This document shows positions 6,660 to 42,052 of a stretch of 42,056 nucleotides of DNA, one piece after another. Within the stretch, counting starts at the first letter, position 1, and every line of letters begins with the position of its first letter. A program made the translations under genes and the position numbers. The notes below the pieces were generated by a model that did no database searches, was not told the origin of the DNA, and saw only the letters and a program-made list of their open reading frames with translations. The DNA comes from Candidatus Berkelbacteria bacterium (lineage in GTDB: Bacteria; Patescibacteriota; UBA1384; JACPKC01). Where the stretch lies: the NCBI GenBank assembly GCA_016198415.1, contig JACQIO010000019.1, positions 1 through 42,056 of the forward strand, written 5' to 3'.

Positions 6660-6720
6660 AGGGCCATCTCCTCTGCGGACAGGACGGGCATCGTTGCCTG
6701 ATCTTCAGGGTATCACAGAC

Positions 6721-6773
6721 AGGAATTTCGCACTTGAGAAGTGGAGGAGAACGTGAGAAAGTCCTATGAGTGA
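6721..6773 (+). promoter_or_regulatory. Inverted-repeat element with mini-ORF MEENVRKSYE-stop (6741-6773), related to the LOG-gene 5' region at 38480-38569
   Basis: AGGAATTTCGCACTT ... GTGGAGGAGAACGTGAGAAAGTCCTATGAGTGA. Confidence 0.7.
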
Positions 6774-36813: not shown

Positions 36814-37788
36814 TCAATTGTGGAGAACCTGGGGCGGACAGCCCTGAAAGTTGAAGGCGTAGGCGGCGATGTCTCCAGATCGAACGGTCAGCGTCAGGCG
36901 GGCGCCCGGCAGGTACCGCTCCGAGCTGACTACCTGGTAGAGACGTGGCTCGGTCAGCGTCAGCTGGCCCCGGAGACCGTTCGCGACGACCTCCTCGCCC
37001 CACGGGTGATCGGTGGGCCGGAGACCGTCAATCGCTAGGTCCAACTGGCTTGTTCCCTGAACGGGTGCGGCCACCAACCCAACGGTGTGGGCCGCAAAGG
37101 TCAAGGCGAGCGTGGGGTGTGACGGGCCGGCGTGGCCGAGCACGGCGTCGGCGGTGCTGTCCCAGGTTCCTGTGAGCGCGACGCCCGGTGCCTCTGGGTG
37201 AGTCACGCGCTTACGGTGACCGCGCGCGTCTCCCAGGTGCGTGTATGGGTTGGTGGGCCAGCAGATTCGTCCGTGGCGATGCTGGTGGTAGCGCAGACTC
37301 ATCTCAGGGAGCGCCTGACGGCCGAGGCCGTAGAGGAGCTGGCGGACCGTCGTCTCGGCCTCGCTCAGCTGGTCCAGGCCGTAGGTGTCGTGACGGACGG
37401 TCCCCGCACCATCCAGGATCAGAAGGCGGGGCCAGGCTTGGGAGTTGAGGGCGCGCCAGATGGTCTGCTCGGCATCGTTGATGACGGGCAACGTGATCGA
37501 GTGTCGTGCCAGTGCCGACTGAACCACCGCCGGTTGTTCCTCAAACGCAAAGTGCGGGCGATGGACCGCGACCACGTCCAGGCGGTAGGGCCGATACTGA
37601 GCCGACCATTCTTGGAGGATTTGCAGCCCGGCCAGGCTGTGGAGATCGGTGGCGGACCAGAGGTAGACGGCGGTCGCCAGGGCCGGCCGACTGTTCCGGA
37701 TCACGGGGCCGTGGTTCGCCAGCCAAGGACCACTCGTCAGGAGCGAGGGGAGGGTTTGGATTGCATCGATGGCGGTGAGGCTGGTCAC
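36814..37788 (-). CDS. Thioredoxin-like protein with DipZ-like C-terminal domain; CXXC absent
   Basis: YRLDVVAVHRPHFAFEEQPAVVQSALARHSITLPVINDAEQTIW; LTGTWDSTADAV; RLYQVVSSERYLPGARLTLTVRSGDIAAYAFNF. Confidence 0.7.
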   Translation of the reverse strand: MTSLTAIDAIQTLPSLLTSGPWLANHGPVIRNSRPALATAVYLWSATDLHSLAGLQILQEWSAQYRPYRLDVVAVHRPHFAFEEQPAVVQSALARHSITLPVINDAEQTIWRALNSQAWPRLLILDGAGTVRHDTYGLDQLSEAETTVRQLLYGLGRQALPEMSLRYHQHRHGRICWPTNPYTHLGDARGHRKRVTHPEAPGVALTGTWDSTADAVLGHAGPSHPTLALTFAAHTVGLVAAPVQGTSQLDLAIDGLRPTDHPWGEEVVANGLRGQLTLTEPRLYQVVSSERYLPGARLTLTVRSGDIAAYAFNFQGCPPQVLHN

Positions 37789-38504
37789 TACGATCGGCTC
37801 GTTCGAGGCGGGCTGGCCTTGATGATGGAGACCACCTGCTCCAGGTCATCGGTCAGGGTCCAGAGCTTGAGATCGGCTGCGTCAATCGCCGCCCGGCCAT
37901 CTAGGAGGGTGTGCTGCAGCCAGTCCACGAGCGGCTGCCAGTACTCGGTGCCCACCAAAACCACCGGGATGTGGTCCTCAATTTTCTTGGTCTGGATGAG
38001 GGTGAGCATCTCAAACAGCTCGTCCAAGGTGCCGTAGCCGCCGGGGAAGAAGATGTAGGCCTGCGAGGCGAACGAGAGCATGACCTTCCGGACAAAGAAG
38101 TACTCAAAGCCAATCGGCTTGGTCACGTACGGATTCACCCGCTGCTCCGCGGGCAGGACGATGTTGAGGCCCACCGAGTCACCGCCTGAGGCCTTGGCGC
38201 CCTCGTTGGCCGCCTCCATGATGCCTGGTCCGCCACCGGTGATGACGGCGTACCCCTCGGCCGCCAGTTTGGCCGCCAGCTCGCGGGCCAGGACGTAGTG
38301 GGGATGATCCTGGGGGGTCCGGGCCGAGCCAAAGATACTGACGGCTTTGTCGAACTTAGACAGGAAGTCAAAGCCATCGACAAACTCGGCCATGATCCGG
38401 AAGATCCGCCAGTTGGGATCGTGCTGGTAGTCAAAGCTCTCGTGTGGTCCAGGATGCAAGCGCCATCCTCGATCTTCCCAGGACTTTCGCACTTTCTCCT
38501 CCAT
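37788..38504 (-). CDS. LOG family/TIGR00730 Rossmann-fold protein
   Basis: SIFGSARTPQDHPHY, AVITGGGPGIMEAANEGA, FFPGGYGTLDELFEMLT. Confidence 0.9.
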   Translation of the reverse strand: MEEKVRKSWEDRGWRLHPGPHESFDYQHDPNWRIFRIMAEFVDGFDFLSKFDKAVSIFGSARTPQDHPHYVLARELAAKLAAEGYAVITGGGPGIMEAANEGAKASGGDSVGLNIVLPAEQRVNPYVTKPIGFEYFFVRKVMLSFASQAYIFFPGGYGTLDELFEMLTLIQTKKIEDHIPVVLVGTEYWQPLVDWLQHTLLDGRAAIDAADLKLWTLTDDLEQVVSIIKASPPRTSRS

Positions 38505-38569
38505 CCGCCTAAGGCGGATGAACTTCGAAACAAACACTTGAGAAGTGATCCCGAAAGTGCGAAAGTCCT
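38480..38569 (-). promoter_or_regulatory. 17-bp perfect inverted repeat enclosing the LOG start codon, with internal hairpins
   Basis: AGGACTTTCGCACTTTC (38480-38496) and GAAAGTGCGAAAGTCCT (38553-38569); inside: ATCCGCCTAAGGCGGAT and CACTTGAGAAGTG. Confidence 0.85.
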
Positions 38570-38585
38570 GTTCCTATTCTACCAC

Positions 38586-38614
38586 CAGTGCCCCGGTGTG
38601 ACACCGGGGCACTG
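38586..38614. terminator. 29-nt perfect palindrome, possible terminator/dispersed repeat
   Basis: CAGTGCCCCGGTGT-G-ACACCGGGGCACTG. Confidence 0.65.
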
Positions 38615-38641: not shown

Positions 38642-38803
38642 TTACTTCTTCCCGCCGGCAAAGCCCACAATGACACCAATGAGACCAACAATGAGGTAGA
38701 CCCACGCGTAGGCCGCGCCCTCAATGCTGAAGGTGCCAAAGAGCATGATGCCGAGGATGAAGAGCAGGATTCCCACAATGACGCTGTACCATTGAGCCGC
38801 CAT
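38642..38803 (-). CDS. Small two-TM membrane protein (53 aa)
   Basis: MAAQWYSVIVGILLFILGIMLFGTFSIEGAAYAWVYLIVGLIGVIVGFAGGKK; GGGAGG before ATG. Confidence 0.8.
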   Translation of the reverse strand: MAAQWYSVIVGILLFILGIMLFGTFSIEGAAYAWVYLIVGLIGVIVGFAGGKK

Positions 38804-38894
38804 AGTGCCTCCCTGAACGAGTGCTTGACTCTCCAGTTGACTGCACCTCGACCGCAGTGCCCATCTAGTATACCAAGAACGAACCAGGAGCGAA

Positions 38895-42020: not shown

Positions 42021-42052
42021 TATACTATCATGCTATATAGCATGATAGTATA
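42021..42052. promoter_or_regulatory. 32-nt perfect AT-rich palindrome, operator-like
   Basis: TATACTATCATGCTATATAGCATGATAGTATA. Confidence 0.65.

Follow-up and report, generated by a model that had tools for sequence, protein, structure and literature searches.

A 92-bp element with IS701-type ends, very probably a MITE, in the leader of a LOG gene

In the window, the whole 42,056-nt stretch of DNA analyzed here and to which positions refer, a long inverted repeat precedes the LOG gene and encloses an ATG in frame with it. A sequence-only reading had left two explanations for this arrangement, a translational switch or a palindromic mobile repeat that donated a new N-terminus. The question is therefore which of these the locus represents, and where translation of the LOG gene begins.

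The inverted repeat in the LOG leader

The arm AGGACTTTCGCACTTTC lies at 38553-38569 (minus strand) and its exact complement at 38480-38496, both as first placed, and one further pair lengthens the repeat to 18 bp (38479-38496 and 38553-38570). Among the window's perfect inverted repeats with spacers of 3-100 nt it is the longest, and the only other long one, with no or little spacer, has 16 bp. A perfect 32-bp palindrome, TATACTATCATGCTAT/ATAGCATGATAGTATA, was seen at 42021-42052 near the contig end and may result from assembly or fold-back.

The element delimited by the repeat covers 92 bp (38479-38570, minus strand), with the left terminal inverted repeat (TIR) CAGGACTTTCGCACTTTC at 38553-38570 and the right one GAAAGTGCGAAAGTCCTG at 38479-38496, both on the minus strand. 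It contains ORF fragments only and no transposase gene. Within it are a hairpin, CACTT-CTC-AAGTG (38535-38547, minus strand), and a palindrome, ATCCGCCTTAGGCGGAT (38503-38519, minus strand), which overlaps the ATG at 38504; the sequence-only reading had recognized both structures, with the palindrome written on the other strand, and the coding-strand form is the one given here. The predicted RNA fold of the 92 nt reaches -49.2 kcal/mol (z = -7.9 against shuffles) and consists of one stem with two inner hairpins that encloses ATG 38504. The Rfam search of the element matched no family.

Just outside the element, a promoter-like site, GTGTCA-17-TAGAAT with an extended TG (38576-38604, minus strand), scored 9/12 in the scan and is a consensus match only; its TAGAAT is at 38576-38581, as previously read. 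On this match, the transcript could possibly start near 38569, close to the first arm. The promoter-like site is overlapped by a perfect 14-bp hairpin, CAGTGCCCCGGTGT-C-ACACCGGGGCACTG (38586-38614), which is without a T-run and occurs once in the assembly. Upstream of LOG, a small membrane protein gene (38642-38862), which is in the same place in G001, gave no match in the Pfam search.

Insertion sequences with the same ends and further copies

In a search of the phylum, the exact 17-mer was found in another family (locus L024), ~90 nt upstream of a transposase gene. A complete insertion sequence (IS) of ~1.15 kb has it there as its left TIR, has the right end GTGGAGTGCGAAAGTCCTA, and is flanked by CCTA on both sides. 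The L024 transposase matches NCBIfam transpos_IS701_2 at 327 bits (cutoff 250). Related ends, such as AGGACTTACGCATTTTC in L030, are shared by further ISs of the phylum that belong to transpos_IS701_2; some of these are more diverged, and several chromosomal ISs are without a clean duplication. Related ISs in cyanobacteria and proteobacteria have the ends YAGGACTTACGCA, and all six plasmid-borne relatives (cyanobacteria, Paraburkholderia, and Moraxella, including ISPlag1) begin with [CT]AGGACTTACGCA, five of the six having 5-bp direct repeats at that same boundary. The terminal repeat AGGACTT[AT]CGCA of transpos_IS701_2 ends is also that of the window element.

The boundary is thus set by the L024 and plasmid ISs independently of the window, and exactly there GGAA stands on both sides of the window element (upstream copy 38571-38574, downstream copy 38475-38478, minus strand). 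With the boundary fixed in advance, four bases would agree by chance once in 256 cases. The direct repeat is 4 bp in both the window element and L024, within the 4-5 bp of IS701-type elements; 4 bp is also listed for ISTth8 of the IS701 family (PMC6352166), whereas the plasmid relatives have a 5-bp duplication.

The assembly (738 kb, 37 contigs, 83% complete) was searched for all arms with at most two mismatches, and the arm was present at three places, the window element included. A second full element on contig C8 (G000:C8:6641-6723), TAGGACTTTCGCACTTTC...GAAAGTGCGAAAGTCCTA, has arms identical to those of the window copy but different inner palindromes, lies ~15 nt upstream of the ATG that opens an unrelated ORF, and is flanked by TAGT and TAGC, which agree at three of four bases. 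A degenerate, shortened copy is found at 6720-6766 (plus strand) in a gap between divergent genes. By the search pattern, no full-length copies were found in other GTDB species genomes or viral contigs.

In G041, a longer element AGGACTTTCGCACTTTGTCATTGCGAG...AATGACAATAAATGATAAAGTCCT (L018, 1500-1662), in which the end motif of the window element is fused to a TCATTGCGAG-type repeat, lies just before an rsmH-like gene, and a similar one-armed join precedes another gene in G001 (L019). A wider family is supported by solo arms in G001 together with this G041 element before rsmH; the assignment below does not depend on them.

With perfect 18-bp TIRs, 92 bp without a transposase, the GGAA duplication, and further copies in the genome, the element qualifies by sequence as a MITE. 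Because its ends are IS ends and the GGAA repeat is at the IS boundary, a MITE with IS701-type ends is the most fitting designation for it. A cognate autonomous IS with an identical left TIR is present in the phylum at L024, while no transpos_IS701_2 or other DDE_Tnp_1 transposase was found in the 83%-complete assembly of the genome itself. The window element shares with the transpos_IS701_2 clade (e.g., ISPlag1) the YAGGACTT[AT]CGCA... terminal repeats, including the 17-mer identical in the L024 IS, and short direct repeats positioned at that boundary, but differs in having no transposase and in being 92 bp rather than about 1.1-1.4 kb; simple deletion from the L024 IS does not account for its inner sequence. 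Like prokaryotic MITEs in general, which may alter leader RNA, it is short and palindromic, has TIRs and a target-site duplication, is without a transposase, and lies near a gene start (PMC10969869), although it has only three recognizable copies, one of them degenerate.

Taken as a whole, the element is very probably a 92-bp MITE with IS701-type ends that landed between the promoter-like site and the ribosome-binding site of LOG, where the TTG start discussed below was most likely kept. An IS701-type transposase acting in trans would have moved it, and this transposase may since have been lost or may be encoded in the portion of the genome that the assembly lacks. The insertion would have occurred at a GGAA, duplicated in the process, between the promoter-like TAGAAT and the LOG ribosome-binding site, so that the predicted pre-insertion site has a single GGAA within TAGAATAGGAAGATCGAGG. 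The LOG mRNA would now have a strongly folded 92-nt leader, whose 5' stem may affect how stable the mRNA is or serve as an RNase III cleavage site, by analogy with the Correia elements of Neisseria; these are likewise bounded by TIRs, occur in transcripts, and can change how the mRNA is processed, with RNase III acting at the TIRs, but are unrelated to the window element in sequence (PMC10969869). The LOG site could serve as a simple natural test of the effect of a MITE leader on expression.

In the literature searched, no description of a MITE of IS701 parentage in such a lineage and no paper on MITEs in Patescibacteria were found; the search for IS701 together with MITE gave a Thermus IS survey only, in which an IS701 MITE is not described. 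The present elements would document IS701-type MITEs in a small-genome lineage, in an assembly without a matching transposase. This lineage is tentatively taken as Patescibacteria-like because its relatives have small genomes.

Start codon of the LOG gene

The 238-aa reading that begins at ATG 38504 aligns with its close LOG orthologs (G001, G002, G029, and G035) from residue ~20 onward only. Neither the repeat nor the MEEKVRKSW peptide was found in these orthologs. For the right arm to form LOG codons 4-9, as the sequence-only reading had it, ATG 38504 would have to be the start, and the orthologs argue otherwise: their starts precede the FDY/FDW/FDF motif by 7-16 residues, and in the window gene this distance is 8 residues from TTG 38459 and 23 from ATG 38504. 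In G001, the small membrane gene upstream is only ~18 nt from the LOG ATG.

When the MITE and one GGAA are removed, the remaining sequence is GTA GAA TAG GAA GAT CGA GGA TGG CGC TTG CAT CCT. We infer TTG 38459 to have been the LOG start before the insertion because this frame has an in-frame TAG, TTG is then the first possible start, and GAGG (38467-38470) lies 7 nt upstream of it. The call rests on position and distance, and aligning the native-start DNA to that of G001 gave no decisive result. From this proposed start, the LOG gene (TIGR00730 family) occupies 37788-38459 on the minus strand, with a profile match, the range of the ortholog match, and the GAGG as evidence. The opening energy at TTG is 14.2 kcal/mol with the MITE and 13.1 kcal/mol without it, so the native start would be little affected, and translation most likely still starts there.

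The foremost alternative is that the MITE donated a start, with ATG 38504 or GTG 38492 giving LOG a foreign N-terminus of 11-15 residues. The open frame does run through the MITE into LOG (possible extension MEEKVRKSWEDRGWR, 38460-38504, minus strand), the MITE plus duplication measures 96 bp and keeps the frame, GTG 38492 is preceded by GGAGGAG, and in-frame MITE fusions are documented for the Rickettsia palindromic elements (PMC10969869). Both codons are, however, buried in the strong fold, with opening energies of 29.0 kcal/mol at the ATG and 32.6 kcal/mol at the GTG against 14 for TTG, and the extension has no ortholog counterpart, the distances to the FDY/FDW/FDF motif again favoring TTG. 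Use of a donated start is thus considered unlikely. The likeness to the Rickettsia elements, palindromic elements in frame with a host gene, holds only if the in-frame start is used; those are ~150 bp and lie inside many ORFs, whereas the window element is at the 5' edge of one gene and is probably untranslated. A broader form of this proposal, in which the right end of the MITE, with its outward ribosome-binding site and start GGAGGAGAAAGTG recognizable in all three copies, hands its hosts a structure-gated start codon and N-terminus, LOG being the captured case, is still more doubtful. With TTG 38459 as the most likely start, gene callers could assign the LOG protein a false MITE-derived N-terminus.

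Switch-like and REP-like readings

The other explanation offered by the sequence-only reading, a translational switch in which the 5' arm, retained for this purpose, hides the LOG start region on a signal, draws on the strong fold that encloses ATG 38504 and on the promoter-like site that puts +1 near the arm. It is very improbable, since the arms are IS ends repeated before unrelated genes, the second full copy preceding an unrelated gene folds differently, and neither the LOG orthologs nor Rfam gave a match. A cis-regulatory RNA or riboswitch is expected to be conserved with its gene and in its fold, and the element is conserved in neither respect. A three-way fold shared by both full copies was also considered and dropped, since the C8 copy folds as one long hairpin, unlike the stem and two hairpins of the window copy; covariation of the two looked promising under a forced consensus only. 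The mobile-repeat explanation, in contrast, agrees with the identity of the terminal repeats, the target-site duplication, and the further copies. What appears to be a self-regulating mRNA would then be an insertion event with a visible footprint, that is, mobile-DNA debris and not a co-evolved switch.

Least probable of all is an origin as a REP/REPIN element mobilized by a Y1 (REP-associated) transposase, four of which (PF01797) are encoded in the genome, several bounded by palindromes: none of the four Y1 loci carries the AGGACTTTCGC arm (at most two mismatches), the direct repeats and DDE-type IS ends indicate IS701, and a REP/RAYT origin was rejected since the same palindrome flanking a Y1 transposase was not found and the L024 IS contradicts it. 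The four Y1_Tnp genes (L014-L017) are at G000 C3:12922-13245, C10:250-516, C4:8324-8590, and C31:17366-17635, and several are bracketed by palindromes peculiar to the individual gene, such as CACCACCCCACCTACAC...GTGTAGGTTGGGTGGTG next to the L016 gene.
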